NCBI RefSeq assembly: GCF_000565015.1
Contig: NZ_JDFF01000012.1
Location: forward strand, 1-64,000
Direction: 5' to 3'
DNA: 64,000 nt
From: Porphyromonas catoniae ATCC 51270
GTDB taxonomy: Bacteria; Bacteroidota; Bacteroidia; Bacteroidales; Porphyromonadaceae
Program-made: the position numbers and the translations under genes
The notes under the pieces: model-generated
Seen by the model: only the letters and a program-made list of their open reading frames with translations
The model's database searches: none
What the model was told of the DNA's origin: nothing
Part shown: positions 2,537 to 59,202 of the stretch, in pieces
Position numbering within the stretch: the first letter of the stretch is position 1
Layout of the letters: the number at the start of each line of letters is the position of its first letter

Positions 2537-2636
2537 CTCCTATAGGGTAACTTTATTTCTCCTATAGGACAAATATTTTTCTCCTATAGGGCAAAAGAAA
2601 TTCTCCTATAGGATAAATGAGTTTACCCTATAGGAG
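2537..2636. repeat. Array C: five CCTATAGG palindromes, exact 22-bp period
   Basis: The 8-bp palindrome CCTATAGG starts at 2539, 2561, 2583, 2605 and 2627, exactly 22 bp apart. The flanks give orientation: the first four copies read CTCCTATAGG and the last reads CCTATAGGAG, so it is four direct units plus one inverted unit. Spacers are AT-rich and differ. The array is immediately upstream of the HU-related gene on the minus strand. Confidence 0.95.
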
Positions 2637-2673
2637 AAATTACTTCAGGGTAAATGAGCTTTCCCTTAGCCCC

Positions 2674-2710
2674 GTGGGACTTGCACCCACGAGCCGTCCT
2701 TTATCGGCTC
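2674..2710 (-). other. Two abutting hairpins resembling a tRNA 3' half
   Basis: Hairpin GTGGG-TGCAAGT-CCCAC (minus strand; 2674-2690) has the 5-bp stem and 7-base loop of a T-arm. It abuts a 6-bp stem with an 8-base loop (2691-2710) that could be a variable arm. No matching 5' acceptor strand or anticodon arm was found on the minus strand up to about 2760, so it is not an intact tRNA. It could be a tRNA remnant, an old attachment site, or chance. Confidence 0.25.
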
Positions 2711-2884
2711 TGTTTAAGGATTAATAGTAAGCTGTGTTTATGTCGTTATCCTTCACCACCTTCTCCCCAGTCGTCAACCCCTATCTCTGCGGAGAACTCG
2801 ATCAGGAGGTTCAGAGGCTGATCTATGCGGATGATTTCGGCTATTGGCTGCTGATATATTTCCTTTTTCATTGCTTGAGAGGAT

Positions 2885-4915
2885 TTACTGGAACTTGCGG
2901 AAGAGATACACAGGATAGTATACTACTTGATGGGTCCAACCCCCACTACTGTAGTGGACGCGAGCTTTTGGGCCTGAACCAGTGAATACCCCACCCTTGA
3001 TATAATCAAGACCACCCAAGCGCAGGCTTCTATCAGGTCCAAAAGTAGCACAGGCCAAGTTGTTATAAAGAATAGCTGCATCATTGTTGTTTCTTCCAAG
3101 TGTTAGCTCCTCTGCCCAAAGGTGTAGCCTGTCGATGGCATGAAGTTCAATTTCCTGGATATCAGGGCGGTGAGGAACCCCTTCATAGTGAATGTTAATA
3201 CGGACTTTAGCACTGTAAGCAGGGATTGTACGAGAGGTTGTTACCGAAGACCAGTTTATCTTATTCTTAACATCTTCAGCTGTCGTAAACTCAGGATTGG
3301 CTCCGACATACTTGCACTTGATTGTCATCATGTGCGTAGTATAGTCATACTTATAGTAGAAGGCATACCGCTTATTCTCTGAGATCTCAGGAAGGAAAGC
3401 TGCTCGATACAGTTGATTAACGTATCCATCTGTGAACCAATACCAGCTACCTGCTGTAGGAAGAGCTGGCAATGGTCTAGTCAGCTCCCCTGCTATAAGC
3501 TCCTTTGTGATCTTATCATTTGCAAGAGGGTTAAAGCATAGAGTGTATACCTCGTAGGTATTACCAGATTGCTCATAAGACTTAATATTGGGTACACCAA
3601 ACAAGCCCTTATAATCTCCTATTTGAACTGGAGAATTGACCCAGTTTGCGGTGAACACGCTATTCCATTCCGCAACAGTAGGTAGATGCCACTTCACTCC
3701 AGCACCACCATTTGGATATGAATATTCTTCACCAGCTAAGATTAGGGCCTTTGAGAGGTCATTACCGCCTTCTCGCATCGTAACTTGGTAGCCATCAAAG
3801 TAGCCTACCTCTTTATTCTTGGTCGTGAAGTTCTTAGTATCTTCGGGGGCAAAATCATCCCAGTTGGTTAGGAAGCCTGTTCCATCTTTATTCACCGCAT
3901 ATTTAGACAAGTATTCTAGTGGATTACGTATCGGACGTACCGTGAGTGTCACCGAATACATGTTTCCCTCCACGTATTCGGAAGGTGATGATTTCGTGAA
4001 TAGCTTAGACACGTAGAACGCTTGGCTCGGCACATCCTTTACGATGAGATCGATCAGGTAGTTGGCGTTATCTAGCATCTCGGGGAGCCACATGAGGAAA
4101 GCCTCTGAGCTTGTAGCTCCAGCTGGTACGGTGAAATCCTTGCTGAACGAGAACTTGCGGTTAGTGTAGTACGAGGTATTATAGCGCCCTTTAAGAGGAC
4201 GATCTGTAATGGATCCACTGCCAGCATAATCCGCAACGTCTGGCACAAGACCACAGGACTGCACACCTGAGAGAGCCAATGGCTCGTTAAGCTCATTCTT
4301 GACGTGTACTTTCAGCAGGTATCCCTTAGGCTTGAACTTATTATTTGCCAACAGTTTATTCACGTATATTCCCTGCGCATCCTTTTTCAGTTCCATTTCA
4401 GGAAGAAAGTAGGGAACCTTCATGGAGAAGGTAGACGATGTTGTGGGAGTAAAGACTTTCACTTCATTATTCTCTGGTAAGGGAATTATGTCAGAATGAA
4501 TATTTCGCATAGCATAAATCCCTGCGACGAGTGTTACCTTATCATAATCATTCGGATTAAAGGTCATATCCCTTATCGTCTGCTTACAGTAAAGTTTTTT
4601 CCCATCATCTGAGACCCGCCACTTGAGCTTATCAGTGTATCCCGTTTCGAGCCTTATGCCTCTATAGGCAAGTATCTGAGTATAAACCTCTATCTCCTCT
4701 CCAGGTACGAGATTTGGCTTTACCTTACCGTTATCAAACTTGTAATTCAGGTGATCTAGAGCTTTGTACCTTTGCACCTCAGTAGATGCCGCAACATCCA
4801 AGGATAGGGAATAGTGCTTTTGCTCTTGCTCTTTCTGGGGCTGGGGTTCTCCTGCCTCTTTATTACATGAGGCAAAGAGGAGTACAGCAAAGAGCATCAT
4901 GAGTACTTTCTTCAT
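2885..4915 (-). CDS. Large lipoprotein, function unknown
   Basis: A 676-residue protein with a lipoprotein signal peptide (lipobox FASC, Cys at about 17) followed by a Gln/Glu/Pro-rich linker. The N-terminal half looks like beta-sandwich surface modules. At about residues 380-420 there is GYQVTMREGGNDLSKAL and then WHLPTVAEW, which recalls the WRLPT.AEW signature of paralogous surface domains in Bacteroidota and Fibrobacter (FISUMP-like). I do not recognise a catalytic motif. It is monocistronic. The leader is unusual: two candidate promoter boxes (5163-5170 and 5036-5043), a run of nine C on the transcript strand, and a long perfect hairpin 27 bases before the ATG, all of which suggest switched or attenuated expression. 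Confidence 0.65.
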   Translation of the reverse strand: MKKVLMMLFAVLLFASCNKEAGEPQPQKEQEQKHYSLSLDVAASTEVQRYKALDHLNYKFDNGKVKPNLVPGEEIEVYTQILAYRGIRLETGYTDKLKWRVSDDGKKLYCKQTIRDMTFNPNDYDKVTLVAGIYAMRNIHSDIIPLPENNEVKVFTPTTSSTFSMKVPYFLPEMELKKDAQGIYVNKLLANNKFKPKGYLLKVHVKNELNEPLALSGVQSCGLVPDVADYAGSGSITDRPLKGRYNTSYYTNRKFSFSKDFTVPAGATSSEAFLMWLPEMLDNANYLIDLIVKDVPSQAFYVSKLFTKSSPSEYVEGNMYSVTLTVRPIRNPLEYLSKYAVNKDGTGFLTNWDDFAPEDTKNFTTKNKEVGYFDGYQVTMREGGNDLSKALILAGEEYSYPNGGAGVKWHLPTVAEWNSVFTANWVNSPVQIGDYKGLFGVPNIKSYEQSGNTYEVYTLCFNPLANDKITKELIAGELTRPLPALPTAGSWYWFTDGYVNQLYRAAFLPEISENKRYAFYYKYDYTTHMMTIKCKYVGANPEFTTAEDVKNKINWSSVTTSRTIPAYSAKVRINIHYEGVPHRPDIQEIELHAIDRLHLWAEELTLGRNNNDAAILYNNLACATFGPDRSLRLGGLDYIKGGVFTGSGPKARVHYSSGGWTHQVVYYPVYLFRKFQ

Positions 4916-4948
4916 AATTACTAATTAATTGTGATTGTACATAACGAA

Positions 4949-4995
4949 GCAGGGACACCACATGGCGTATCGTGCCATGCAGTGTCCCTGCTTCT
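4949..4995 (-). promoter_or_regulatory. Long leader hairpin of the lipoprotein gene
   Basis: Outer arms AAGCAGGGACAC and GTGTCCCTGCTT pair over 12 bp, and inner arms ATGGC and GCCAT extend the stem. On the minus strand it lies in the 5' leader of the lipoprotein gene, with no U-run behind it, so it is more likely an RNA-stability or translation element than a terminator. On the plus strand it is followed by a T-rich stretch. Confidence 0.6.
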
Positions 4996-5026
4996 ATTCT
5001 TTGTTAAGTATTGTTTCCCGCTAGTA

Positions 5027-5043
5027 GGGGGGGGGCAAAATTA
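5027..5043 (-). promoter_or_regulatory. -7 box TAATTTTG next to a nine-C tract
   Basis: On the minus strand the box TAATTTTG (5043-5036) is followed directly by nine C residues (5035-5027), where transcription would begin. A homopolymer of this length can slip and so vary promoter spacing or leader sequence. The -33 region is weak. Confidence 0.4.
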
Positions 5044-5162
5044 TGTTAAGATTTTGACGAGCGTCAGTAAAGAAGAGACGCTGAGAAGCCTTGCCTCCCA
5101 GTATCTCTAAACTCATATATGTCTGATTACCTGCCATTACTCTTAACTAGGTCTTGCGACTG

Positions 5163-5170
5163 CAAAGGTA
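5163..5170 (-). promoter_or_regulatory. -7 box TACCTTTG, upstream promoter of the lipoprotein gene
   Basis: A consensus box on the minus strand, 248 bases from the ATG, giving a leader of about 240 bases that contains the C9 tract and the hairpin. Confidence 0.5.
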
Positions 5171-5311
5171 AAGAAATAAATTAAATACAAGTACTATATG
5201 TTTCACATTCATTGATTTGTCGTGATGGTATGGATGAGGCGTGATGCCTTCCCTCTGCTGCTGTCTTTGTGCCGATCGGGAGGCATACGTAGCTATGTGG
5301 ATAGATAAACG

Positions 5312-5319
5312 TATTTTTG
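5312..5319 (+). promoter_or_regulatory. -7 box TATTTTTG for ldhA
   Basis: The box ends 57 bases before the ATG at 5376 and lies inside the longer open frame from 5241, which argues against the upstream start. Confidence 0.55.
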
Positions 5320-5375
5320 CTCCGCAAACAGGTTTTTTCCAAGACCACTACTTTAGGTATTTAACAACGGAATTT

Positions 5376-6380
5376 ATGTCCAAAGCAACCATAGCGTTCT
5401 TCGGAACAATGCCTTATGACAAGGCGACCTTCAAGGCTGTGAATGAGCAGTACGGCTTTGATATTAAGTTTTACACAGGTAACCTCAGCCTCGATAACGT
5501 CTCACTGACGCGTGATGCTGATGCCGTCTGCGTCTTCGTTAACGACAATGTCGATGCAGAGTTGATCCTTCGGCTGAAGGAGCACGGTGTGCGTCTGATT
5601 GCCCTGCGCTGTGCAGGGTACAACAACGTGGACATCGCTGCTGCACAGCGTGCTGGTATTGCTGTGGCACGTGTACCTGCCTATTCACCACATGCCGTGG
5701 CAGAGTACGCTGTTGCGCTCATGCTCTCACTCAACCGCAAGATACAGCGTGCCTCTTGGCGTACACGTGATGGGAACTTCTCGCTCAATGGTCTGATGGG
5801 CTTCGATATGTATGGCAAGACCCTCGGTGTGATCGGTACGGGGAAAATTGCCAAGGTACTAATTGGCATCCTGAAGGGCTTCGGTATGAAGATCCTTGCC
5901 TACGACCTCTACCCCGATCATGCCTTTGCAGAGGCGAACGGCGTAGACTACGTTAGCCTCGATGAACTCTATGCAGGCTCAGACATCATCTCTCTGCACT
6001 GTCCACTCACCCCAGAGACAGAGTACCTCATCAACCGTGAGAGCATCGCGAAGATGAAGCGTGGTGTGATGATTATCAATACGGGGCGTGGGCGACTAAT
6101 CCACTCCGATGACCTTATCGAAGGGCTGAAGACAAAGCAAGTGGGCTTCGCAGGACTCGACGTTTACGAGGAGGAAGAGCCGTACTTCTACAAGGATAAG
6201 AGTGACAAGATCATTGATGATGACACGCTGGCACGTCTGCTGTCCTTCAACAACGTCATTATGACCTCGCACCAAGCCTTCTTCACTGAGGAGGCAACGC
6301 AGAATATCGCTCATACGACACTCTCTAATGTACTAGACTTCGTTGAGGGTCGTCCGCTCGTGAACGCTGTGCATGACTAG
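5376..6380 (+). CDS. ldhA: D-lactate dehydrogenase (2-hydroxyacid dehydrogenase)
   Basis: A 334-residue NAD-dependent D-2-hydroxyacid dehydrogenase, probably interconverting pyruvate and D-lactate in the cytosol during fermentation. The start (MSKATIAFFGT) matches the family N-terminus. LRCAGYNNVD, then PAYSPHAVAEYAV, precede the Rossmann nucleotide site GVIGTGKIAK at about residues 153-162. Catalytic residues lie in the expected places: Arg in NTGRGRLI, Glu in DVYEEEEP, and His in MTSHQAF. A longer frame back to 5241 exists but contains the promoter box and adds 45 residues that do not resemble the family. Monocistronic, ending at a strong bidirectional terminator. Confidence 0.88.
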   Translation: MSKATIAFFGTMPYDKATFKAVNEQYGFDIKFYTGNLSLDNVSLTRDADAVCVFVNDNVDAELILRLKEHGVRLIALRCAGYNNVDIAAAQRAGIAVARVPAYSPHAVAEYAVALMLSLNRKIQRASWRTRDGNFSLNGLMGFDMYGKTLGVIGTGKIAKVLIGILKGFGMKILAYDLYPDHAFAEANGVDYVSLDELYAGSDIISLHCPLTPETEYLINRESIAKMKRGVMIINTGRGRLIHSDDLIEGLKTKQVGFAGLDVYEEEEPYFYKDKSDKIIDDDTLARLLSFNNVIMTSHQAFFTEEATQNIAHTTLSNVLDFVEGRPLVNAVHD

Positions 6381-6407
6381 CCTCTTGGGCTAACCTATTC
6401 AACCATT

Positions 6408-6459
6408 ACTCGCCCCACCCCGACCTTACCCATCTGAGGTAAGGCGAGGTGGGGCGAGT
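6408..6459. terminator. Bidirectional terminator
   Basis: A long GC-rich hairpin (arms about 6408-6430 and 6437-6459, with small mismatches) between convergent ldhA and the methyltransferase gene, followed by CTTTCTT on the plus side. Confidence 0.8.
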
Positions 6460-6479
6460 GCTTTCTTATGGATTGCCTG

Positions 6480-7307
6480 CTAAAGCTCGAAGGTAAAGAT
6501 GGAGGTATTCAGCCGTATCTTTTGATTTAGGCGCATGAGCTTCGCCACCCACCAGACCTCAGCCATGAGGTCTATGATCGGTGTCTTGCGGATGAAGCGA
6601 GCCGATGGTACGAGCCGTAGGATGTCTGCCTCGGAGTCAACCCCCTCGGCGAAGTTCGCCTCCATGTGCTTCAGTGTGTCGTGTTGTCTGGAGCGTTTCG
6701 CCCATGCACGGCTTAGTGCGTCGAAGATAACGGTGCATCTACCCGCGAAGGCCTCATGTAGATGCGTCAGAGCCTGCTGGATCTCGATCTGATTGAGGTA
6801 GGCAAAGACACCCTCAATGCAGACGATGACGTGCGTCTCGGCATCCAGCTCGGTAGCAATGGTCTTGATCCATGCCTCGTCGAGGAGGTTACCCCCGATC
6901 ATATCTTTTGCCTCCTTGAAGAGCTGTTGCCGAACCTGAATGACGTTGGGGAAGTCCATATCGAAGTGCCGGGCTCCGTACGTGCGGTCAGCGATGCGTT
7001 CGCCTCGGGTATCTAGCCCGCAGCCTGCATTGATCGTGACAAATCGTTTACCTGCTGCGTGCAAAGCCTCCGCTTGTCGTACGACCTCCGCATCGAAGTA
7101 ACGGGCTCTGACGAGACAGCCATAGTAGCTAGGGCTCTTCTTCGGGGAGAACTTCTCTTGGTCGTAGCGGATTTTTTGGTACAGCTCCTCGGCGAGTTTA
7201 TCGTTGAGAATAGGCTTCTTACTACGGCAGTCGAGTGCGCGCATCGCTAGTGGGATTACAAGGGTCTCTTGGACTGCACCAAGCCCCTCGAGATTGATCT
7301 GTTCCAT
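6480..7307 (-). CDS. Class I SAM-dependent methyltransferase, LCM family
   Basis: A 275-residue protein of the leucine carboxyl methyltransferase-like family (the group annotated as polyketide-type O-methyltransferases). The order of motifs fits: VIPLAMRALDCRSKKPILNDKLA near the start, YFD then AGCGLDTRGER as the SAM-binding loop (about residues 94-104), DMDFPNVI for the acidic ribose contact, and VICIEGVFAYL after it. The substrate is not evident. It has its own promoter and terminator and is divergent from pfp across a region holding palindrome array D. Confidence 0.78.
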   Translation of the reverse strand: MEQINLEGLGAVQETLVIPLAMRALDCRSKKPILNDKLAEELYQKIRYDQEKFSPKKSPSYYGCLVRARYFDAEVVRQAEALHAAGKRFVTINAGCGLDTRGERIADRTYGARHFDMDFPNVIQVRQQLFKEAKDMIGGNLLDEAWIKTIATELDAETHVIVCIEGVFAYLNQIEIQQALTHLHEAFAGRCTVIFDALSRAWAKRSRQHDTLKHMEANFAEGVDSEADILRLVPSARFIRKTPIIDLMAEVWWVAKLMRLNQKIRLNTSIFTFEL

Positions 7308-7340
7308 ATTTAATAATGGTGTTATTTATGACTTACGTCA

Positions 7341-7348
7341 CAAAGCTA
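7341..7348 (-). promoter_or_regulatory. -7 box TAGCTTTG for the methyltransferase gene
   Basis: The box ends 34 bases from the ATG on the minus strand. Array D begins 30 bases upstream of it, where the -33 region and upstream contacts would be. Confidence 0.6.
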
Positions 7349-7377
7349 CTATTTCTCTATTAACTCCGTTTGGATAC

Positions 7378-7429
7378 CTCTAGAGTTTTCAGTCGAGAGC
7401 TCTAGAGCTTTTGCTTGGAAGCTCTAGAG
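7378..7429. repeat. Array D: three CTCTAGAG palindromes, exact 22-bp period
   Basis: CTCTAGAG starts at 7378, 7400 and 7422. The second and third copies extend to GCTCTAGAG. The period equals that of array C but the unit sequence is unrelated. It lies between the divergent methyltransferase and pfp genes. No further CTCTAGAG copy was found one period to either side. Confidence 0.9.
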
Positions 7430-7605
7430 ACTCTAACCCGAAAGTACTCTGTTTCTCCTCCGCTAGAACTTGGTTTAGGGTGACAGATAGACCTCTATCT
7501 TCCTCTGTAAAAGGGCAAAGGAAGGACACGGAAGGCATATATGAAGAAATTTTAAGATATTTGTGCTGAGAATTTGCGACATAATCCAAAAGAATACTTA
7601 ATTAA

Positions 7606-9252: not shown

Positions 9253-9321
9253 TCGCTCGGCGCATCCCCAAGGTCGGAGTAACCGCACTCCTAAAGGCCT
9301 AGCTCCGACCCTTGGTAAAAG

Positions 9322-12420: not shown

Positions 12421-12575
12421 TGAAAATGCAACTACTTTTTCAATAATAAGTCTCGAAAAGCCCTCTTTATCACATCTTTTGCTCTCCTAGGATGAATCTC
12501 CAGAGTATGACGAAATGGTGTTTTGTAAGTGTTTAAATATAAGCTAGATACATTTGTGTGAAATGAAGTAACTGC

Positions 12576-12682
12576 GAGTTGCCATAAGTCGCTTCGACGA
12601 GTTATGGTAACTCGTCGCAACGAGTTGTGGTAAGTCATCTCAGCGAGTTATGGTAAGTCGTAGAGACGAGTTATGGTAACTC
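12576..12682. repeat. Array A1: five 15-bp palindromic units, exact 23-bp period
   Basis: Units start at 12576, 12599, 12622, 12645 and 12668. The consensus is GAGTTATGGTAACTC, with 8-base spacers such as GTCGCAAC. The first unit has the opposite centre (GCCATA against ATGGTA), so one inverted unit is followed by four direct units. Half-sites vary between GAGTT and GACTT. It lies between the antiporter promoter and the end of radA. Confidence 0.96.
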
Positions 12683-12812
12683 GTTTAGGTGTGTTTTTGT
12701 GTGCTTGTATCGAATTGATTTGTAGTGGTTTGTGCCTTGCCTAGGGTTTGGGTGTAGTCCACTAGAGGAAGGCGTGCGTTTTCCTATACACGGAAACTGT
12801 TTATACACCAAG

Positions 12813-17574: not shown

Positions 17575-17754
17575 AGCTAATCTCATGCGACTACTTCCCT
17601 GTCATCTCGATAGAGTGGGATAAAGTGAGGAAAGAGGAGTGTAACTCTGACCGATTGTCAGCGGGTATTCGATACAAGTACTTTAAACTGTTTGGAGTGG
17701 TTTATACCTTGCTCTTACAGAGTGAAATGCGCAGGTCAAAAAATGTGGCATGAC

Positions 17755-17861
17755 GAGTTACCATAACTCGTTACAAAGAGTTATGGTAACTCGCTGAAGA
17801 GAGTTGTGGTAAGTCGTTGAAGAGAGTTATGGTAACTCGTTTTGGCGACTTATGGTAAGTC
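17755..17861. repeat. Array A2: five 15-bp palindromic units, exact 23-bp period
   Basis: Units start at 17755, 17778, 17801, 17824 and 17847, of the GAGTTATGGTAACTC family. The first is inverted (centre ACCATA) and the other four share one orientation. The last has both half-sites changed to GACTT/AAGTC, which keeps the palindrome. Confidence 0.96.
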
Positions 17862-17967
17862 GTTACGCCTCGCTCACTAGCCCTGTATCTAGGGCGTTTG
17901 AGAGAGATGGCAATCGATAATAAAGAGGGACAAGGCAAGAAGAACTAAAAGCGAGAGAAACGAAGAA

Positions 17968-22475: not shown

Positions 22476-22634
22476 CCCTTATTCTTCATAACTAGGCTTA
22501 GATGAAAGGGAAACATTAAGGGCTGATACATATGGATGATGATGAGTACGTCGTATAATAATCCCTTTGCTAAGATGGTCTGTCACCTCCCTTCATAAAA
22601 TCCCCAGATACGGGGTTTGTGAAAGGGTGGTAAA

Positions 22635-22741
22635 GACTTACTATAAGTCGTTGTAACGAGTTACCATAACTCTCTTCGACGAGTTACCATAACTTTTCAT
22701 CACGAGTTACTATAACTCTTTGTGACGAGTTATGGCAAGTC
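22635..22741. repeat. Array A3: five 15-bp palindromic units, exact 23-bp period
   Basis: Units start at 22635, 22658, 22681, 22704 and 22727. Here four units read with centre ACCATA or ACTATA and the last is inverted (ATGGCA), so the array is the reverse of A1, A2, A4 and A5 but has the same make-up. It lies between the divergent DUF4286 operon and dnaE. Confidence 0.96.
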
Positions 22742-23155
22742 GTCAATTCGTGTTTTGGTGATCTTTGTATTTGATTGTGTATGAGTTTCCTATAAGCTCC
22801 TCCTCATCCATGGCCTTCGCCAGATTGGTGAGCTCTGAAGCGATGTGAATAAATGCGACCTGCACCCCTTTTCAAGGACTGACCTAGGAGCAAAAGCATT
22901 TATCAGCTCTCTCCAATCTAGCTATTAGACTTGGACCTGTAGTGAGAGGGTAGCTCTTTATACTTCAGTCATGGAATAAGATCCCGTGTGCTAGGACTGC
23001 CCTTCCGTAATTGCAATCGATGGGCATGTGGTGAGGGCTACTCTACGCCTAACGATGCAATGAGGGGAAGATGCTCCAATAAAATATGTCTGGAGGTGCC
23101 GCCTCTGGAGTTGATGGAGACGGGTATGTGGGGAAGGGAATACAAGGATTTACGG
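22742..23155. other. Intergenic stretch without recognised genes
   Basis: No ORF with coding character, no RNA-like hairpin and no -7 box was seen between array A3 and the dnaE promoter. Confidence 0.5.
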
Positions 23156-28524: not shown

Positions 28525-28777
28525 AGGAGTAGGCTGTCGAGGGAGGAATGCCTGCCGTGGAAGGGAGGACAAGTAGCACAGCTGGTGAGGGTGTGCGTCT
28601 CCTACCTCGCTAGCATAGATTCACTGCATAGCCTAAATGAGTGAATGGGGGAATGCCGCCATGCGTCCTTGGTCTTATTGAAAATACCTCACACCCTTTT
28701 ATCAAAGCCTTTTGCTCCATCGCCTCAAGAGAGTCATGAGGTTGCGTGGATGACTCTCCCCTAAAAGCATCGAATTA
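28525..28777. other. Intergenic stretch without recognised features
   Basis: Nothing coding or clearly structured was seen before array B1. Confidence 0.5.
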
Positions 28778-28884
28778 GGTAACGAGGAAACCTCTCGGGA
28801 GGTATCCCCGTAAAGTCAGGAGGGGTATCCCCGTAACCTCCTCAGAGGTGTCCCCGATACCTATTGAGGGGTGTCTGCTCCTGC
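28778..28884. repeat. Array B1: five 15-bp units of a second sequence family, exact 23-bp period
   Basis: Units start at 28778, 28801, 28824, 28847 and 28870. The consensus is GGTATCCCCGTAACC. The first unit is inverted (centre ACGAGGA), the other four share one orientation and the last is degenerate (GGTGTCTGCTCCTGC). It lies upstream of sdhCAB. Confidence 0.92.
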
Positions 28885-39591: not shown

Positions 39592-39646
39592 TGCTCTATC
39601 ACCTACCCTAGCTCTGCTCTACCCTTTCCCCTGTAACCCCTCAGGA

Positions 39647-39730
39647 GGTATCCCCGTAACCTCTCGAGAGGTTACGGGGAAAACTCCTATGAGGTATTGG
39701 GGATACCTCTCGACAGGTTTCCTCGTAACC
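39647..39730. repeat. Array B2: four 15-bp units of the second family, exact 23-bp period
   Basis: Units start at 39647, 39670, 39693 and 39716 (GGTATCCCCGTAACC, GGTTACGGGGAAAAC, GGTATTGGGGATACC, GGTTTCCTCGTAACC). Orientations are forward, inverted, inverted, forward. Spacers such as TCTCGAGA are themselves palindromic. It lies upstream of efp. Confidence 0.94.
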
Positions 39731-39795
39731 TTAGGGGAGGAGCGAATGGGCGGAGAGGAAAAGTACTGGGTATGGGGCATTTGGGGTAATTTTCC

Positions 39796-41794: not shown

Positions 41795-43039
41795 CTATCT
41801 GATTGTTACCTGAGTGGCACCATAGCCGTATTCTCTGAAGGAGGCGTCTTGATACGTGCAGCTCTTATACTTGTGCTTCAGCTCACGCTCTATGGAGCTA
41901 CGTAGTACGCCGTCTCCCTTGCCGTGGATGAAGATGACCTTGCGCCCCTTATATGGAAGTTCCTCCTGCATGATGCGATGAAAGTACTCGATCTGATACT
42001 CGTGGATATCTGCACTCGACATACCAGCTGTTGTCTCTAGTAGGCTGTGGGCGTGCAGGTCAATGACCAGAGGTTCATTGGGATTTCTCTTGGGGGCAGG
42101 TTGCTTCTTGTGGGGCTGGCTTTTCTCTTTTGTAGAGGGGCTTTTTAGGGCTTCCTCTAGCTTAGCTGTCTCCACTTTTAGCTCCTCGGTAGCCCTGCCT
42201 CCCTCCAGCACGGGGATGAGCAGAGCATCGTCTTGGAAGAACTCATTCTCGGTGAAGCTATGCAGCTTAAAGAACTTGCGTGTGTCAAGGCGAAGACGTA
42301 CGAGCTCTGGGTTAAGGAGCTTGAACGGACGCTGGTCATCGTAGGGGGCAAGCTGAAGGGCAAGCTGCTCCAGATCATTGAGCGAAGCAGGGGTAAACTC
42401 CTCTAGGAAGGCATCGCCATTGGGCTCAATTACCCCCGAGGCACGTAGCTTGTAACTTGTGCCGACACTGCTGAGGTAGGTGAAGAAGAGGCAGTAGTTG
42501 CTCTTATTCACGAGGTAGGCTTCGTAGCTGGTCAGCCCCAGCTGGGTGCGGTCTATGGGGAGGAAGGCTAGGTAAACACTTAGCTCTGAGTGATCAGGGA
42601 GGTAAGTGTAGGGCAAGCCCTTGGTGGGGAGATGCGGAGACTGTCCCAGAGTCTGTGCAGGGGAGCCTTCGGAGCTTACGGGGATACCTCCCTTGGGGTT
42701 ACGGGGATACCTCTCTTGAGGTTGTGAGGATACCTCTCTCGAGGTTACGGGGATACCTTTTCTCGTGGAGTGGGAGGCGTTGCCTTGAGTTCGTCCTAGT
42801 TCCCCTCCAGAGCTGGAGGATTTGAGTTTATCCTGGATGACCTTGGGGGGGCGGATAGCTGGGATAAAAGTGTCGTCCTTCTCTACGACGACACAGTCCT
42901 TGAGGGGCGTGGGAATCTCGAAGCCATCTTCATCCTCCACCCACGCCGTGTCGCCCGTGATACGGGCAACATGCCCTCCGCCGACAGCATTGAGGAAGCG
43001 TACCTCAGAGCCGACGTGTACGTTATGGGGATTATTCAT
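41795..43039 (-). CDS. DUF2027/Smr domain protein with a repeat array in its coding sequence
   Basis: A 414-residue protein: an N-terminal KOW/Tudor-like part (VGSEVRFLNAVGGGHVARI, about 9-27), a disordered linker (about 72-140), a central DUF2027 domain (LSVYLAFLPIDRTQLGLTSYEAYLVNKSNYCLFF is only partly conserved), a Lys/Pro-rich second linker and a C-terminal Smr domain with IDLHAHSLL and the FIHGKGDGVLR loop (about 330-414), the MutS2-type DNA/RNA nicking fold. Residues 94-122 are encoded by four copies of the 23-bp array B3, which are read in three frames and give GIPVT, VSSQP, RYPRN and GIPVS. It overlaps the DUF6427-like gene by 4 bases (ATGA) and abuts the CYTH gene. Confidence 0.82.
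   Translation of the reverse strand: MNNPHNVHVGSEVRFLNAVGGGHVARITGDTAWVEDEDGFEIPTPLKDCVVVEKDDTFIPAIRPPKVIQDKLKSSSSGGELGRTQGNASHSTRKGIPVTSREVSSQPQERYPRNPKGGIPVSSEGSPAQTLGQSPHLPTKGLPYTYLPDHSELSVYLAFLPIDRTQLGLTSYEAYLVNKSNYCLFFTYLSSVGTSYKLRASGVIEPNGDAFLEEFTPASLNDLEQLALQLAPYDDQRPFKLLNPELVRLRLDTRKFFKLHSFTENEFFQDDALLIPVLEGGRATEELKVETAKLEEALKSPSTKEKSQPHKKQPAPKRNPNEPLVIDLHAHSLLETTAGMSSADIHEYQIEYFHRIMQEELPYKGRKVIFIHGKGDGVLRSSIERELKHKYKSCTYQDASFREYGYGATQVTIR
42674..42757. repeat. Array B3: four 15-bp units of the second family inside a gene, exact 23-bp period
   Basis: Units start at 42674, 42697, 42720 and 42743, in one orientation with consensus GGTTACGGGGATACC, the reverse of the B1 unit. They lie in the linker of the DUF2027/Smr gene. 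The frame stays open through all units. Confidence 0.95.
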
Positions 43040-48754: not shown

Positions 48755-48982
48755 GTGATAATTTATGGAATATCATAGCGATGTGCCTCTCTGTGTCTCA
48801 TCCCTCATGCCTCGTGAAGAGGGAGCTTGGGGTAAGTGGGGCCGTGTTGGCGTTAGCCTAGGGATCAAGGTGCTGTGGTGTAGGTGTTGGGCTCTCTTCG
48901 AGTGGAAACACTACGGCTTCTTTATGCTGCCCTAGGGCGGTAAATGGATGCTGATTCTCAGTCCCTTATGGAGGGAGATGAC

Positions 48983-49089
48983 GACTTACCACAACTCGTC
49001 GCGACGAGTTGTGGTAAGTCGCTTGAGCGAGTTATGGTAAGTCTTCGGAACGAGTTATGGTAACTCGTTGTGACGACTTATGGTAAGTC
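48983..49089. repeat. Array A4: five 15-bp palindromic units, exact 23-bp period
   Basis: Units start at 48983, 49006, 49029, 49052 and 49075. The first is inverted (GACTTACCACAACTC), the rest share one orientation. It lies between divergent rpmE2 and gapA; nothing else was seen between 48780 and 48982. Confidence 0.96.
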
Positions 49090-49199
49090 GTTCAGGGTGT
49101 CTCGTGGAGTGGGGGTATGTCTATTGATACATAGTGTGTTACGTCTTTGTTTGGGGTGTGGGAAGAGGACTTTTATAAGATTTTTGAGAAAGGTGCAGA

Positions 49200-51739: not shown

Positions 51740-51754
51740 GAGTTATAGTAACTC
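51740..51754. repeat. Solo unit of the A family
   Basis: GAGTTATAGTAACTC, with perfect 6-bp arms, stands alone about 46 bases upstream of the -7 box of the second HU-related gene. No neighbour was found one period away. Confidence 0.7.
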
Positions 51755-51967: not shown

Positions 51968-52441
51968 ATGATTCACTTTGAAGTAAAGTCCAAGAAGCTC
52001 AATCTTGGCAAGCGTAAAGGACAGACTGTCTTCTATGCAAAGCGCAAGCACTATGATCGTGTTTCTCTCAAAGAAGTAGAGAACGAAATCGTCTACTCTA
52101 CGTCACTCACCCATGCCGATGTCCGAGCTGCTATCTCAGCCCTCTCTCGCTTCGTCCTCCGTGCCCTGGAGGAAGGTCGAGCTGTAGATCTTGGCGAGCT
52201 GGGCTCACTCCGTGTCACCGTCCCCGTACGTATGGTGGATAAGGAGGAGGACGTCACCCTCCACTCCCTTCGCCATCCCGTGGTGCGATTTGCTCCGAAG
52301 GCGGATATGCGTCGGTCAGCACAGCGAGTCTCCATCGGGGTTCACAACCCCAAGGCAAAGGATGCTAAGCCCAAGACTCCTCAGCCAGGGAAACCTGGTG
52401 CTGATAGTGGCCAGCCTGGTGGCGGAGGTGTAGGTATATAG
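51968..52441 (+). CDS. HU-related DNA-binding protein
   Basis: A 157-residue paralogue of the protein at 2030-2509. It has the same plan: an N-terminal strand, VSLKEVENEIVYSTSLTHADVRAAISAL (dimerisation helices, about 37-64), GRAVDLGELGSLRVTVP, a DNA-arm region with VRFAPKADMRRSAQ, then a Lys/Pro-rich linker and the tail PGADSGQPGGGGVGI. The tail is almost the same as in the other copy although the cores differ widely, so the tail is under its own constraint. Likely a nucleoid-associated protein. Own promoter, closed by a terminator. Confidence 0.8.
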   Translation: MIHFEVKSKKLNLGKRKGQTVFYAKRKHYDRVSLKEVENEIVYSTSLTHADVRAAISALSRFVLRALEEGRAVDLGELGSLRVTVPVRMVDKEEDVTLHSLRHPVVRFAPKADMRRSAQRVSIGVHNPKAKDAKPKTPQPGKPGADSGQPGGGGVGI

Positions 52442-52517: not shown

Positions 52518-52572
52518 GGTTTATTGAGGTGGAGAGAGGGGGCTTTGCCACAAGGGAGTGAGCGGAAAGTCG

Positions 52573-52580
52573 TAACTTTG
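52573..52580 (+). promoter_or_regulatory. -7 box TAACTTTG for the ABC-clp-sigma run
   Basis: The box ends 87 bases before the ATG at 52667. Confidence 0.58.
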
Positions 52581-52666
52581 GTATAATTATTGTATTCATT
52601 TCGGTGTGCCATCTAGCCGTTATAATAAAGTCAAGTAGGCTAGAGTGGCATTGTTAATGATTTTGG

Positions 52667-54523: not shown

Positions 54524-54538
54524 TAAGCAAAGGAAAAG

Positions 54539-57061
54539 ATGAAGTATAACTATACAGACACCTTTCGCTCAGCCCTTGAGTTAGCCTCTGAGCAAGCTCG
54601 TGAGCTCGGGGTGTCGGAGGTCAATCCCAATCTCCTCCTCTGGGGCATATTGAAAGAAGGCACAAGTGCCGCTATCAAGTTCTTTAATGACCGTGGCCTC
54701 TCTCACCTTGAGCTGATGCGCCGACTAGAGGAAATGCTGGAGCGGGGATCTGGGACTGCTTCGGAGCCCATCTTATACAACGTAGAGGCACACGAGACCA
54801 TTGCACGTGCTGCTGAGATTTCGACCCTTTTAGGTGATAAGGCTATAAGTCCATTACACCTCCTATTGAGCATCTATTTCAGTGAAGAGACTACAATTCT
54901 CTCCTCCTATCTGGTTGCACACGACATTGTACCCCAGCGTGACTCTCTGCTCTCTCGTGTGGAGGGTGGACTTAGTGGACACCAGCAGGGGATGACTGAG
55001 CATGCAGATATGCCCTCAGAGGGGGAGCTACAGATGTCCTCGGCGAAGTCTCTACTTGGGAGGGCACACATCACAGCTGTACGCCTTGATGAGAACTTCA
55101 AGCCTGTATCCGCTTTTGCCAAAGGACCGGATGGTGAGACTTCGATTGATGGGGAGGCAATGCTTCGTATGCTCAAAGGGCTCGCAGACCATTTGGAGTC
55201 TGTAGATGCAGAGCAAGGGGGTAATGCCAATAGTCACTTCCCGTTTGCAGACTTTGGGGTAGATTTAGTTGAGCGCCTCCAGCGAGAAGAGAAAGAGCCT
55301 GACACTTGTGTTGGGCGGGAGAATCAGTTAGCACATCTTCAGCAGCTGCTCCTTCGGTATAAGAAGTGTAGCCCAATAATTATAGGTGAACCTAAGGTTG
55401 GTAAGACCGAAGTTGTACGTCAGCTTGCTCGGATGATTGCCCGTGGTGATGAGCTGCCCGAAGGCTTCCCATATAGGCATATCCTACAGCTGAGTATGGC
55501 GAGGCTTTTTGCTGGCTCACAGTTTCAAGGGGGGGTAGAGAGCTCTGTTCGTTCGCTTGTGGAGGCTCTGCGTAGTCACCCAGAGGTACTTCTTTTCATT
55601 GATGATATTCATCTGATGAAGTCTGGGGGGCGAGGCTCCAGTGTTGATGCTGCTGAGCTGATTTTCTCTGCCCTAGAGCTTCATGGGCTTCGCCTAATAG
55701 GTACAGCTACGAGTAGTGGCTTCTCTCAGAGTATTGATGATAGTGATTTGATGTCGCGCTACTGCTATCCAATCCTCGTTGAGCCCTTAACAAAAGAGCA
55801 GACTCACCAAGTCCTCCTTGCTAAGAGTCGCCTATATGGAGACTTCTTTGGTATAGACTTGCAGCCCCTCCTTGAGCGTATTCTTATACTCTCCGAGCGG
55901 TATATGCCTGCTCTTCCATACCCTTACAAGGCGATTGAGCTCATGGATGCCACTGGTGCAGAGGTCCGAACTCGTATCAAACGTGCAGACCTTAACCGAG
56001 GGCAAATGGAGTTTGGATATACTGAGGATGATGTCGATCAAGCTCTTGCCCGGCTTACAGGCCTTCCTTTAGAGCGCATTACAACAGAGAGTGAGCTGAA
56101 GCGCCTCATCGGCCTACCACACTATCTGAAAGAGCGTGTCATTGGGCAGGATAAGGCAGTGGAAGCGATTGCCCGTACCGTGCAGCGATCACGTCTTGGA
56201 CTGCGAGATAGCCGTCGCCCTATTGCTTCAATGCTTTTCCTCGGACCGACAGGAGTTGGGAAGACGTATCTAGCAAAAGCCCTTGCCCGCGAGGTCTTCG
56301 GGAGTGAGGATGCTATGGTTCGCATCGATATGAGTGAATTCTCTGAGCGTTTTGCCGTCTCTCGTCTCATCGGATCACCACCGGGATACGTAGGCTTTGG
56401 TGAAGGAGGAGAGCTGACCCAGCCGATACGCACGAAGCCCTATTCCCTTGTCCTCCTAGACGAGATAGAGAAAGCCCACCCGGACACATATAATATTCTC
56501 TTGCAGGTCTTCGAGGATGGTCGTCTGACCGATACGGAGGGTAACGTGGTGGACTTCCGCAATACGATTGTGATCATGACCAGTAATGTGGGTTCTCGTC
56601 AAGCTCAAGACTTTGCTCGAGGGGTTGGCTTTGCTGAGCTGTCGGACGAAGCCACACGCAGTGAGGGTATTATACGGAAGGCACTACAGCGGACATTTAG
56701 CCCTGAATTCCTCAACCGTTTGGATGAAGTCATTGCCTTCGAGCCTCTCTCTGATGACGCCCTTGTCCGCATCCTTGAGCTGGAGTTAGCACAGTTGAAG
56801 GAGCGCGTGACCCAGCAAGGATATAATGTAAAGGTATCACCTGAGGCTTGCCGAGTGCTTGCTCTCCGCGACAACGATCGTACAATGGGTGCGCGCCCAA
56901 TCCGCCGTACGCTCCAGCACACCGTAGAGGATAAGCTCCTCTCCTACATACTAGAGGGGAAACTCAATGAAGGGGAAACACTCTCCATCGCTCTAGGGCG
57001 AGATAAGATGCTCCGCTACAGTGTCACTCGCCCCCGACGCCAAGTAAAGAACCACCGATGA
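54539..57061 (+). CDS. clpC: Clp protease ATP-binding subunit, ClpC/ClpA type
   Basis: An 840-residue AAA+ unfoldase with two ATPase rings. Residues 1-150 hold the double Clp_N repeat (SEVNPNLLLWGIL, then KAISPLHLLLSIY). D1 has Walker A IGEPKVGKTEV (about 281-291) and Walker B LLFIDDIHLM; D2 has GPTGVGKTYLAKAL (about 571) and LVLLDEIEKAHPD, sensor NTIVIMTSNVGS and PEFLNRLDE. The VGF tripeptide in RGVGFAEL is where ClpC docks to ClpP, so a protease role is likely. An extra, poorly conserved stretch lies at about 150-260. Its stop codon overlaps the start of the sigma factor gene (ATGA). Confidence 0.88.
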   Translation: MKYNYTDTFRSALELASEQARELGVSEVNPNLLLWGILKEGTSAAIKFFNDRGLSHLELMRRLEEMLERGSGTASEPILYNVEAHETIARAAEISTLLGDKAISPLHLLLSIYFSEETTILSSYLVAHDIVPQRDSLLSRVEGGLSGHQQGMTEHADMPSEGELQMSSAKSLLGRAHITAVRLDENFKPVSAFAKGPDGETSIDGEAMLRMLKGLADHLESVDAEQGGNANSHFPFADFGVDLVERLQREEKEPDTCVGRENQLAHLQQLLLRYKKCSPIIIGEPKVGKTEVVRQLARMIARGDELPEGFPYRHILQLSMARLFAGSQFQGGVESSVRSLVEALRSHPEVLLFIDDIHLMKSGGRGSSVDAAELIFSALELHGLRLIGTATSSGFSQSIDDSDLMSRYCYPILVEPLTKEQTHQVLLAKSRLYGDFFGIDLQPLLERILILSERYMPALPYPYKAIELMDATGAEVRTRIKRADLNRGQMEFGYTEDDVDQALARLTGLPLERITTESELKRLIGLPHYLKERVIGQDKAVEAIARTVQRSRLGLRDSRRPIASMLFLGPTGVGKTYLAKALAREVFGSEDAMVRIDMSEFSERFAVSRLIGSPPGYVGFGEGGELTQPIRTKPYSLVLLDEIEKAHPDTYNILLQVFEDGRLTDTEGNVVDFRNTIVIMTSNVGSRQAQDFARGVGFAELSDEATRSEGIIRKALQRTFSPEFLNRLDEVIAFEPLSDDALVRILELELAQLKERVTQQGYNVKVSPEACRVLALRDNDRTMGARPIRRTLQHTVEDKLLSYILEGKLNEGETLSIALGRDKMLRYSVTRPRRQVKNHR

Positions 57062-57627
57062 CTACCCCACTGATTACCGAAGAAGAATTGCAACGCCAGC
57101 TTGCCGAGCCTAGCTCTCGGCGGGTGGCGTTTTCTCTTGTTGTGCGTCTCTACTCCAAGCAGATCTATTGGCAGATTCGCCGTATGGTCTATTCGCATGA
57201 AGATGCAGACGACCTTGTTCAGAATACGTTCATTAAGGCGTGGGAGGCGATAGAAGGCTTCCGTGGAGAAGCGAAGGTCTCGACTTGGCTGTATCGCATT
57301 GCCACTTACGAGGCGCTGAACTTCCTGAAAAAACGTCGCAGTGAGGAGGAGCATCGCATTAGCCCGAGTGAAGAGGCTGATGCTGCGTATTTATTGTCTC
57401 GACTCCATGCAGATGAGTACTTCGATGCGGATGAAGTAGAGGAACGCTTTCAGAAAGCCATCCTTACCCTTCCTGCCAAGCAGCAACTGGTCTTCCGACT
57501 GCGCTACTATGATGAGATGCCTTACGAGCAAATGTCTAAGCTGACGGGAACGAGTGAGGGCGCTCTCAAAGCATCCTACCACCACGCTCATCGCAAGATT
57601 CTTGAGCTTCTTGATGCTGAAGAATAA
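57058..57627 (+). CDS. ECF sigma factor (RNA polymerase sigma-70 family)
   Basis: A 189-residue extracytoplasmic-function sigma factor. Region 2 contains YSHEDADDLVQNTFIKAWEAIEGFRGEAKVSTWLYRIA (the -10 recognition helix), region 4 contains LTLPAKQQLVFRLRYYDEMPYEQMSKLTGTSEGALKASYHHAHRKI, a helix-turn-helix. It is translationally coupled to clpC by a 4-base overlap and followed by a small membrane protein and a CpxP-like protein, so the set probably senses envelope stress. Confidence 0.93.
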   Translation: MTTPLITEEELQRQLAEPSSRRVAFSLVVRLYSKQIYWQIRRMVYSHEDADDLVQNTFIKAWEAIEGFRGEAKVSTWLYRIATYEALNFLKKRRSEEEHRISPSEEADAAYLLSRLHADEYFDADEVEERFQKAILTLPAKQQLVFRLRYYDEMPYEQMSKLTGTSEGALKASYHHAHRKILELLDAEE

Positions 57628-57683
57628 ACCTTTCCCTTAATATCTTGTCTCACCCATTGAAGTCTAGTGCTTCACAGTTATAT

Positions 57684-58091
57684 ATGGATAAGCAAACCAA
57701 ACTTCCGACCCCTGAAGAGAGTCGTCAGCACTACTCCGTCCCTGAGGGCTATTTTGATAGGCTCGAGGAGCGTATCCTCGCTCGTCTACCCGAGACCCCG
57801 CAGGAGGATAACCCCGAGCATGCACGTCCTTCACTATGGATACGTGTACGTCCGATCGTTTATCTGGCGGCTGTCTTCGTCTCGATGAACCTCATCTTCC
57901 GCACCTTTTTCAGCCCAGCACATAAGGAAGGCACTCAGCGGGTCGCTACTACGACTGCTGAGGTGCAGGACGAAGACTACAGTGCCTATTATGCCGAATA
58001 TGGAGGGCAGGTCGCTGCGTATGATGCTGATAAATCTCTCTTCTTGGGTGAAGCAGGCTTTGCTTCGACTTCGTATTCTAGTTACTATTAA
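57684..58091 (+). CDS. Small single-span membrane protein, probable anti-sigma-like partner
   Basis: A 135-residue protein with a cytosolic N-terminal part (about 1-60, including SVPEGYFDRLEERILARL, a stretch common in Bacteroidota genes behind ECF sigma factors), one hydrophobic segment IVYLAAVFVSMNLIFRTFF at about 67-85 and an acidic, Tyr-rich tail. The place after the sigma gene suggests it restrains the sigma factor. ATG 57684 is chosen; upstream in-frame codons up to 57645 start only with TTG. Confidence 0.62.
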   Translation: MDKQTKLPTPEESRQHYSVPEGYFDRLEERILARLPETPQEDNPEHARPSLWIRVRPIVYLAAVFVSMNLIFRTFFSPAHKEGTQRVATTTAEVQDEDYSAYYAEYGGQVAAYDADKSLFLGEAGFASTSYSSYY

Positions 58092-58102
58092 CTCTATTGT
58101 TT

Positions 58103-58741
58103 ATGATGAAGAAGATTGTCTATGGCCTCCTCACGATTGCTCTGGGGGTAGGTCTTACTGCCGAGGCCCAGCAGACAGGCTCTCACTGGAGGCGAGATAG
58201 GGCGAGGTATGAGCAGCGTCTTGACCACCAGCGACAGCGTCTTGCCCTGCTTCATGAGCGACTGCAAGAGCAAAGGCACGAGCGAGCTAGGGCAAGGCAC
58301 GAGCGTCTTTTGGCTCAGAAGCAAGAGCAATCCACAGCGAAACGTGAACGCCCTCGTGGCAATAAGCAGGAGCGTATGGCCTCGATGCGTGAGCGTATCC
58401 GAGCAGAGAAGCGAGCCTATCTCATCCAACACCTCGAGCTGACGGAAAAGGAAGCCGATGGAGTCATGTCCATCCTCAACGAGCTAGACGAGAAACGTTT
58501 CCAGCTCTGGCGTGAAGGCGAAGCCCTCGGTGGTCGTGTCCGCAAGTCTGACAAGACGCTCACCGAAGAAGAACTAAACGCCTTCCTTGAGCAATCCCTC
58601 TCGGCTCGCATCAAGGAAGCTGAGCTTGAGAAGGCCTACTATCTACGTTGCCGTACTGTCCTCCCGGTACAGAAGGCTGTTCGTCTGCCCCATGTTTGCC
58701 GGGCTTTTGCTCGTCGTTTTTTTGAGCAACATAAGCACTAG
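58103..58741 (+). CDS. Exported CpxP/Spy-like protein
   Basis: A 212-residue protein with a signal peptide (cleavage after AEAQ) and a strongly charged, Arg/Gln/Glu-rich coiled-coil stretch at about 30-115 with repeated RARHERL-type heptads. Then comes LIQHLELTEKEADGVMSILNELDEKRFQLWREGEAL, which resembles the LTxxQ helical hairpin of the CpxP/Spy family of periplasmic chaperones. It completes the clpC-sigma-membrane protein run and is probably a target or part of the stress response. Start at 58103 or 58106 (two adjacent ATG). Confidence 0.65.
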   Translation: MMKKIVYGLLTIALGVGLTAEAQQTGSHWRRDRARYEQRLDHQRQRLALLHERLQEQRHERARARHERLLAQKQEQSTAKRERPRGNKQERMASMRERIRAEKRAYLIQHLELTEKEADGVMSILNELDEKRFQLWREGEALGGRVRKSDKTLTEEELNAFLEQSLSARIKEAELEKAYYLRCRTVLPVQKAVRLPHVCRAFARRFFEQHKH

Positions 58742-58911
58742 TGTTGGTAGCCTCTGTAGCACCAGGTGCAGAGGTGAGTCCACAGAGAGCTAGAGTTGAG
58801 CATACCGCTATCTAGCATCTACATTTGGCAACCTGCTTAGATTAAAGTCTCAGTCTCCTAATAAGGCTTTGGTCTTATTCTCTCTGCATCCTTATTGATT
58901 GCTTCGGATGC

Positions 58912-58966
58912 GCCCCCTATTCTCCGTCCCCTCATCGAGGCTCTGAGTAGGGGGCTTTATTTTTTG
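58912..58966 (+). terminator. Terminator after the CpxP-like gene
   Basis: GCCCCCTA (58912-58919) pairs with TAGGGGGC (58948-58955), then TTTATTTTTT. A second inner hairpin lies between the arms. Confidence 0.85.
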
Positions 58967-59072
58967 ATGTAAGTGGCCATGGATAATATGAGGAAATTCG
59001 TTATGCCTTTAGGTGAGATGGGTAATCGACTGTGTGCCAGAGGGAAATGTTTTTGTTGAATCTGCTTTTAAT

Positions 59073-59202
59073 GAGTTGCCATAACTCGTTTCAGAGAGTT
59101 ATGGTAACTCGTCTGAGCGAGTTATGGTAACTCGTCTGAGCGAGTTGTGGTAAGTCGCTCCAACGACTTATGGTAACTCGTTTTGATGACTTATGGTAAC
59201 TC
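59073..59202. repeat. Array A5: six 15-bp palindromic units, exact 23-bp period
   Basis: Units start at 59073, 59096, 59119, 59142, 59165 and 59188. The first is inverted (GAGTTGCCATAACTC), the other five share one orientation; units two and three with their spacers are identical over 46 bases, which suggests recent duplication. It is upstream of the cytolysin-like genes. Confidence 0.96.

Follow-up and report, generated by a model that had tools for sequence, protein, structure and literature searches.

IHF and SPO1 TF1 are sequence-specific members of the HU superfamily, and IHF has dispersed sites as well as control over its own expression; in both cases one protein or pair per genome acts at single sites. 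MatP and Noc each have many palindromic sites (matS and NBS) with effects beyond the adjacent gene, and among the REP/BIME repeats the REPs fold into hairpins and spread together with RAYT transposases. Sites of the matS/MatP, NBS/Noc and GalR type are, to our knowledge, single sites with one code per genome and without mutually excluding rival codes. GalR (PMC5110547) likewise has dispersed chromosome-organising sites. In PMC4596501, BrickBuilt of Porphyromonas gingivalis is a minisatellite inside a miniature inverted-repeat transposable element (MITE); it has between 1 and about 23 copies per site, and many sites also have a leader, a tail or terminal inverted repeats. Its shortest element, BrickBuilt_14, has no terminal repeat listed there and adjoins PGN_0872, a 'DNA-binding protein (PF00216)'. 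Here we describe tandem arrays of phased palindromes in a 64,000-nucleotide stretch of the mouth bacterium Porphyromonas catoniae ATCC 51270 (contig NZ_JDFF01000012.1, positions 1 to 64,000; hereafter the window) and in the rest of this genome (G000, a 2.036-Mb draft in 25 contigs), and we report a new link between such arrays and proteins of the HU-HIG/HU_rel family. Titles and abstract openings of open-licence papers yielded no work joining HU-HIG or PF18291 proteins to repeat arrays.

Our reading is that the arrays would be cooperative binding sites of sequence-specific HU-type proteins, which would regulate their own genes and serve as spaced nucleoid anchors. We put this reading as a whole at roughly two chances in three. 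Its parts differ in strength: the arrays, their codes, the association with HU-HIG genes, the co-divergence, the spacing and the tails come directly from sequence computation, and binding, cooperativity, autoregulation and the architectural role are inferred. We consider it probable that HU-HIG proteins bind the arrays, and the architectural role is a tentative proposal, which we hold at somewhat less than even odds.

The original prediction, drawn from the window sequence, counted ten arrays in 64 kb, and all ten are where it had placed them, as seen by direct reading of the window, with which Tandem Repeats Finder concurs. They are listed here with the two HU-HIG genes of the window, which that prediction had missed, and with one isolated unit; arrays and units carry no strand.

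2030..2509, minus strand: HU-HIG protein, 159 aa, C-terminus ...GGGGIGI (Pfam E 9.8e-21, TIGR01201 E 4e-22)
2537..2640: family C array, five CCTATAGG units, period 22 bp, last unit inverted (direct reading and Tandem Repeats Finder)
7378..7429: family D array, three CTCTAGAG units, period 22 bp, outer units degenerate; in a divergent gap
12574..12684: family A array, 5 x 23 bp, '-++++' (direct reading and unit-step count)
17753..17863: family A array, 5 x 23 bp, '-++++' (direct reading and unit-step count)
22633..22743: family A array, 5 x 23 bp, '----+'; in a divergent gap, with dnaE as one neighbour
28776..28863: family B array (B1), 4 x 23 bp, GGTWWCSSSGWWACC, first unit inverted (direct reading)
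39645..39732: family B array (B2), 4 x 23 bp, units in mixed orientation; flanked by a DUF2851 gene and the EF-P gene
42672..42759: family B array (B3), 4 x 23 bp, all units in the same orientation (direct reading and Tandem Repeats Finder)
48981..49091: family A array, 5 x 23 bp; in a divergent gap, some 270 bp before the GAPDH gene
51740..51754: family-A unit on its own (14/15 match), 228 bp upstream of the HU-HIG gene that follows
51968..52441, plus strand: HU-HIG protein (L195), 157 aa, tail ...PGGGGVGI (Pfam E 6.6e-23, TIGR01201 E 1.2e-26)
59071..59204: family A array, 6 x 23 bp, '-+++++' (direct reading and unit-step count)

Some 30 bp separate the near end of the family C array from the start codon of the minus-strand HU-HIG gene, whose product belongs to the seven paralogs described below and is the putative binder of this family; a second family C array is found at L017:15260 (similarity 0.98). 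The other HU-HIG gene of the window has no array of its own upstream.

The arrays of the window belong to a large population. A scan for phased palindromes over 464 kb of G000 gave 37 arrays at a threshold of 26, or 27 at a threshold of 28, almost all phased at 22-24 bp; shuffled sequence gave none. A census with a stricter threshold, covering 864 kb (42% of the genome), gave 99 intergenic arrays, again with none in shuffled sequence. The extrapolation to the whole chromosome is an estimate of about 230, in line with the 'few hundred arrays' that had been foreseen. At least eight unit families are present, with periods between 22 and 24 bp. Family A, GASTTAYSRTAASTC at 23 bp, is the best represented together with B; its pattern GAGTTRYSRYAACTC has 227 matches across the whole of G000, the reversed pattern has none, and neither is the pattern matched in any of 24 other genomes of the genus. 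The remaining families include B (GGTWWCSSSGWWACC, 23 bp), G (ACCCWNNNNWGGGT, 24 bp), C (CCTATAGG, 22 bp), D (CTCTAGAG, 22 bp, with four more arrays so labelled in 784 kb of G000), H (CACCTATSATAGGTG, 23 bp), E, F, K and more. Odd-length palindromes mostly have a 23-bp period and even-length ones a period of 22 or 24 bp, with some exceptions, as if the linker between palindromes were constant at about 4 bp.

The period is exact within arrays, as predicted: the unit step of family A is 23 bp in 126 of 127 steps (32 arrays), the odd step being a spurious extra unit. The copy number, which had been thought common to all families, is instead specific to each of them, with five units in 49/53 arrays of family A and four in 16/20 of family B. 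The proposed design of one inverted end unit stands for most of family A (35/53 arrays are '----+' or its reverse complement) and for B1 and, via its flanking bases, for C, but it is not universal. More precisely, B3 runs all one way, B2 is mixed, D has three clear units with degenerate ones outside them, the rule is obeyed by two of the three family A arrays with six units, and the exceptions in family A include '-----' (four times), '+---+' (three), '+++-+' (three) and '-+++-' (two). Comparison of family A arrays gives 87% identity for the cores and 40% for the 4-nt linkers, which shows that the cores are under selection and the linkers are not. The earlier suggestion of selection on spacing and palindromy, with many unit families sharing one architecture, is supported. 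Some arrays are heterotypic: four of the five H arrays hold one B unit exactly 23 bp from the end H unit (12-14/15 matches), and the fifth, without a B unit in register, sits at an HU-HIG promoter. At L007:14300-14620 a family E and a family F array lie 132 bp apart, the latter also being compatible with a 33-bp period. The family A arrays of L055 and L056 have their last units and right flank in common and differ on the left, as would be seen after an exchange.

The link with HU-HIG proteins came from the clustering of open reading frames (ORFs) over the same 42% of G000, which revealed one striking paralog family of seven proteins (127-246 aa). Their best match is HU-HIG (PF18291), together with the NCBIfam model TIGR01201 (HU_rel), above curated cut-offs. 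PF18291 is described as 'HU domain fused to wHTH, Ig, or glycine-rich motif'. The whole 2.04-Mb genome has 17 PF18291 matches, which we read as 15 HU-HIG and 2 ordinary HU proteins. The HU-HIG profile also matches solved HU chains, the best being 5eka (E 1.6e-8), and TF1 (1exe, E 2.4e-5).

We compared G000 with four genomes of the genus: P. pasteri JCM 30531 (G004), G012, Porphyromonas sp. oral taxon 278 (G015) and the P. gingivalis-like G041, which we equate with P. gingivalis ATCC 33277, partly on its BrickBuilt copies. In RadA, G000 shares 83-85% identity with the nearest three (G004, G012, G015). Stretches of all four carry arrays of identical geometry with other units, and the commonest unit varies by species, being GACCTACNGTAGGTC at 23 bp in G015 and TGAGGGATATCCCTCA at 22 bp in G012, where 15 of 16 such arrays have four units. 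The GAPDH gene of oral taxon 278 likewise has an upstream array, but with a different unit. The five genomes have 6-15 HU-HIG paralogs each. When arrays were sought within about 400 bp of genes at a score of at least 50, they were found upstream of 35/51 HU-HIG genes and downstream of none (0/51), compared with 1/10 ordinary HU genes and 57/388 random control genes upstream (Fisher P 2.6e-15 for HU-HIG against controls). At a score of 54 the figures are 32/51 upstream, 0/51 downstream, 1/10 for ordinary HU and 38/388 for controls. A second, independent sample of HU-HIG loci, 29 in number and taken from 16 other genomes (29 of 30 loci, the partial match L322 being left out) has arrays upstream of 16 and downstream of 6 (P 1.8e-6, with the controls of the original five genomes). 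In eleven genomes from other families of the order we found mainly short HU-like matches. Genomes with at most three HU-HIG genes have 2 arrays in 159 kb, and those with at least six (G000 left out) have 49 in 900 kb, the gene counts in this comparison being read off match lists.

The HU-HIG proteins of a species tend to share a C-terminal ending: [VIL]GI in 13/15 (G000), GH[VI]GA in 5/8 (G015), VGI in 4/7 (G004), NSGL in 5/6 (G012) and [GS]GL in 11/15 (G041). Six proteins with such species endings were found in the ORF set of G000, and all are HU-HIG. tRNA-linked islands were rejected as the setting of these genes, as a tRNA is present in just 3/51 loci. A tRNA-like fragment, GAGCCG-TAAAGGA-GGCTCGTGGGTGCAA-TCCCAC, occurs upstream of two related HU-HIG genes:

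about 2655-2720 of the window, minus strand: tRNA-like fragment (also in L193 at about 1335-1385)

ARAGORN reports no tRNA in these loci and Rfam none in the window. In G012, three loci (L209, L210, L212) contain a block of about 1 kb, 92-95% identical, that comprises an HU-HIG gene with the array in front of it, and no further similarity surrounds the block within the 3.3-kb loci. In G041, L246 and L247 are an identical 1.8-kb duplication in opposite orientation, which holds an HU-HIG gene and its array.

Most HU-HIG paralogs have different units, and near-identical duplicates (L209/L210/L212 and L246/L247) have common ones. Among the 35 HU-HIG genes with arrays, unit similarity climbs from 0.19 at less than 30% protein identity to 0.60 above 80%, and the two similarities are correlated (Mantel r 0.354, 0/5000 permutations as high). 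The correlation persists once near-duplicates are removed (31 proteins, r 0.266, 0/3000 permutations); by region of these 31 proteins, r is 0.296 for the putative arm, 0.251 for the C-terminal part, 0.231 for the N-terminal part and 0.197 for the helical body. Since co-inheritance of a gene with its promoter could inflate this signal, we compared the arrays of five related-protein pairs, four between species and one within G041. In three of the five, all between species, the cores are 85-90% identical, the linkers 37-57% and the flanks 38-52%. Array units thus appear to diversify together with the paralogous HU-HIG proteins, which makes the earlier idea of 'one element class that diversifies its unit' nearly right.

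Some of these codes recur away from HU-HIG genes. Once 54 family A arrays and the 4 arrays located at HU-HIG genes are set aside, 27 of the 87 scattered non-A arrays match the promoter unit of an HU-HIG gene of their own genome (similarity of at least 0.75), and 10/87 match a unit of another genome. The values are 12/41 and 0/41 in G000, and in G015 six of eight scattered arrays match L232. Such matches suggest that each HU-type protein variant would have its own DNA address code. For family A, candidates come from isolated units. Among 269 family-A units (14/15 match or better) in 864 kb, only two occur singly, each of them upstream of an HU-HIG gene: the one at 51740 of the window, and L008:2064, about 760 bp before L194, with a 79-aa ORF between them in what we take to be one intergenic gap. 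The HU-HIG proteins L192, L194, L195 and L202, whose genes lack arrays, fall in the clade of odd 23-bp units in the tree. Because of these isolated units and of this clade, L195 or L194 is the candidate binder of family A.

Arrays are evenly spaced in the spans of G000 that we analysed, another feature absent from the original prediction. We studied 784 kb of G000 in seven contiguous spans, with genes called by a greedy ORF rule rather than a trained gene finder. Arrays less than 200 bp apart were merged in the main and conditioned tests, and those less than 90 bp apart in the test with stricter thresholds; two close pairs are known, at C1 54.3 kb (132 bp apart) and at about 126 kb of C12, outside the spans. 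Only 6/90 intervals are shorter than 3.5 kb, compared with 19-25 expected for random intergenic gaps, and 24/90 fall between 4.2 and 5.7 kb, compared with about 12 expected. Stricter thresholds give 6/89 short intervals vs 21.8 expected (0/2000 simulations). Conditioning on gap type and length gives 5/85 vs 21.5-22.0 (0/3000), which rejects gene context alone as the cause of the even spacing. Different families avoid one another as well: of 44 non-A arrays, one is closer than 3.5 kb to an A array, where 11.2 are expected (0/2000).

BrickBuilt is a likely member of the same class, which had also gone unnoticed. Its unit, GAGRGGATACTATGGTCTC, has 83 matches on one strand of G041 and 89 on the other (control 0), and the first 100 places listed are separated by steps of 23 bp or multiples of it. 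One cluster, at 961,378-961,442, lies directly upstream of the HU-HIG gene L231 at 961,562. This copy fits BrickBuilt_14 as given in PMC4596501, and L231 would be PGN_0872 by position and annotation, rather than by sequence. As the unit precedes L231 and BrickBuilt_14 adjoins PGN_0872 in that text, we think that BrickBuilt is the scattered array family of L231 and a member of the array class. The original prediction had named this repeat for comparison; the 23-nt tandem units are indeed shared, and the unit sequence and terminal repeats are not. The unit is absent from 864 kb of G000, as is the A pattern from 200 kb of G041. Like BrickBuilt as described there, families A, B and H have tandem 23-nt units without spacers and are intergenic and species-specific. 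Unlike it, other families have periods of 22 or 24 bp, and family A arrays lack a leader, tail or terminal repeats and nearly always have five copies.

Other known systems differ as well. The HU-HIG proteins are of HU type, like IHF and TF1, and their profile matches the TF1 chain, but they number 6-15 per genome and many have their own tandem palindrome array. The proteins of matS/MatP, NBS/Noc and GalR have folds unrelated to HU. REP/BIME elements are likewise intergenic, species-specific palindromic repeats in hundreds per genome; unlike them, the arrays have exact 22-24 bp phasing and no hairpin covariation (175 units, see below).

According to the reading that we favour, several dimers of one and the same HU-HIG (HU_rel) protein would bind each array cooperatively. 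Each palindrome (18-20 bp) would take one dimer and, with a linker of about 4 bp in between, the next would sit 22-24 bp further on, so that 4-6 dimers with some flanking DNA would make up one nucleoprotein particle. Every paralog would read its own unit, and many HU-HIG genes may be controlled by the array in their own promoter region. Copies of each code would lie scattered between genes, chiefly in divergent gaps. Since the families are spaced jointly, as one system, we infer that the particles do one shared job and are equivalent whatever their code, most likely as spaced nucleoid anchors or boundaries. The species-specific C-terminal tail, common to most paralogs, could be their shared contact. 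A bolder version is a bar-coded chromatin of interchangeable particles, most of them docked by the glycine-rich species tail onto one partner, with codes rewritten at speciation; we consider it possible, at about one half of the confidence given to the simpler account.

Several observations weigh against this reading. Sixteen of the 51 HU-HIG genes have no upstream array, and two (L196 and L248) have a stop inside the profile match. At a loose score of 46 the contrast weakens (40/51 upstream, 12/51 downstream, 4/10 for HU, 127/388 for controls), and the 6/29 genes of the second set that also have an array-like match downstream come from a noisier scan. Four genomes rich in HU-HIG genes have no arrays in 20-60 kb, so the density trend is weak. 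Regarding the codes, 60/87 scattered non-A arrays have no HU-HIG match in their own genome at 0.75, and those of G004 match the units of other genomes (6/13) more than their own (3/13). Families A and B, the commonest of G000, and TGAGGGATATCCCTCA of G012 lie upstream of no HU-HIG gene by the array criterion, and their binders are guessed from the clade, for A also from single units. Part of the Mantel signal may come from genes being inherited along with their promoters; one between-species pair shows no difference between cores and linkers (0.66 vs 0.67, flank 0.85), and the pair within G041, made of distant paralogs, matches poorly (0.40). The even spacing is weaker in G012 (3 short intervals vs 7.0 expected, P 0.021 and 0.008) and not significant in G004 and G015. 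Finally, array positions are mostly not kept across species, with 6 present in both, 24 only in the source genome and 17 only in the relative. The idea of conserved positions was rejected, since 6 shared ones are not clearly above a rough expectation of 3; a stricter test on conserved gene pairs had two usable pairs, neither with an array, which is too small a sample.

The most serious competitor is that the arrays are ordinary multi-site operators, each family being the regulon of one regulator that controls adjacent genes, with no architectural role. Gaps of at least 200 bp hold an array more often when they are divergent, and thus bear promoters (28/38, vs 41/108 tandem and 7/28 convergent, threshold 58), and low-copy families lie close before HU-HIG genes, both as operators would. 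Independent regulons do not, however, predict that families avoid one another over several kb. Furthermore, orthologous genes in relatives mostly lack arrays, and scattered A arrays usually keep a distance of at least 200 bp from start codons, and some (4/30) lie in convergent gaps. We find this account unlikely. An improbable one, in our view, is a selfish cassette of HU-HIG gene and array that seeds its own code, with competing paralog lineages and a spacing that results from the purge of harmful neighbours. It would explain why the dominant unit varies by species, why array positions turn over, and the cassettes duplicated in G012 and inverted as an identical 1.8-kb pair in G041. No recombinase or transposase was recognised by eye in the ORFs of L209 and L247 (no family search was run), and the nearly fixed unit numbers, the mixed B-H arrays and the common tails suggest cooperation over competition.

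A slightly lower probability goes to functionless MITE or minisatellite copies of the BrickBuilt kind, spread by transposition or ectopic recombination. In its favour are the description of BrickBuilt as a minisatellite within a MITE in PMC4596501, the exchange-like sharing between L055 and L056, and the threefold block of G012. The conserved cores and variable linkers of family A stand against it, as do the nearly fixed number of units and the over-dispersed positions of the arrays. Nor do the flanks have the marks of an element: those of family A show a weak positional pattern over about 50 bp on each side and then no similarity, and no enriched 8- or 10-mer. Together with the two results that follow, the loss of similarity speaks against a derivation of all units from one MITE with leader and tail, which would have overturned the original prediction. 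(Two weakly conserved kinds of flank occur around these arrays, one per side in 37/53, whatever the array orientation.) Target-site duplications are not clearly present: no pair of offsets has more than four shared 4-mers or more than two shared 5- to 6-mers among 53 A arrays, and the best count of shared 3-mers is 7/53, at unequal offsets of 40 and 30. BrickBuilt-like terminal repeats, sought at family A only, are on both sides of 0/53 arrays and on either side of 1/53, compared with 4/530 and 35/530 random positions. On these two results transposition was rejected. The least probable alternative, to which we give very little credit, is that the palindromes act as RNA hairpins or cruciforms in termination, processing or attenuation. 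Every unit is indeed a dyad, and several flanks have short inverted repeats by eye. However, the mirrored variable bases of 175 family-A units (G/C 79, C/C 72, G/G 18, C/G 4, others two) show no covariation, as expected of a double-stranded dimer site and not of a hairpin. There is none in the flanks of A arrays either, and Rfam has no match in the window at gathering score. The absence of covariation in units and flanks led us to reject RNA hairpins as the role.

Two further features of the window concern its genes. The array at 42672..42759 overlaps the N-terminal part of the ORF at 41795-43039, whose true start is probably downstream of the array, because its first domain, DUF2027, begins only at residue 153. 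Two adjacent ORFs on the plus strand, 59716-61530 and 61576-63384 (604 and 602 aa), cluster as paralogs, and the former matches thiol-activated cytolysin (PF01289, E 2.7e-11).

HU-type proteins are usually viewed as weakly specific DNA packers. If our reading is true, a genus with up to 15 HU-type paralogs per genome, many of them linked to their own tandem palindrome code, would be a natural library for the study of sequence reading by the HU fold, the HU_rel family would gain a testable function, and the BrickBuilt repeats of P. gingivalis would be explained. It would also make this a bacterial chromosome with architectural sites that are legible in its sequence, and with an even spacing that goes beyond what single-gene regulation predicts.

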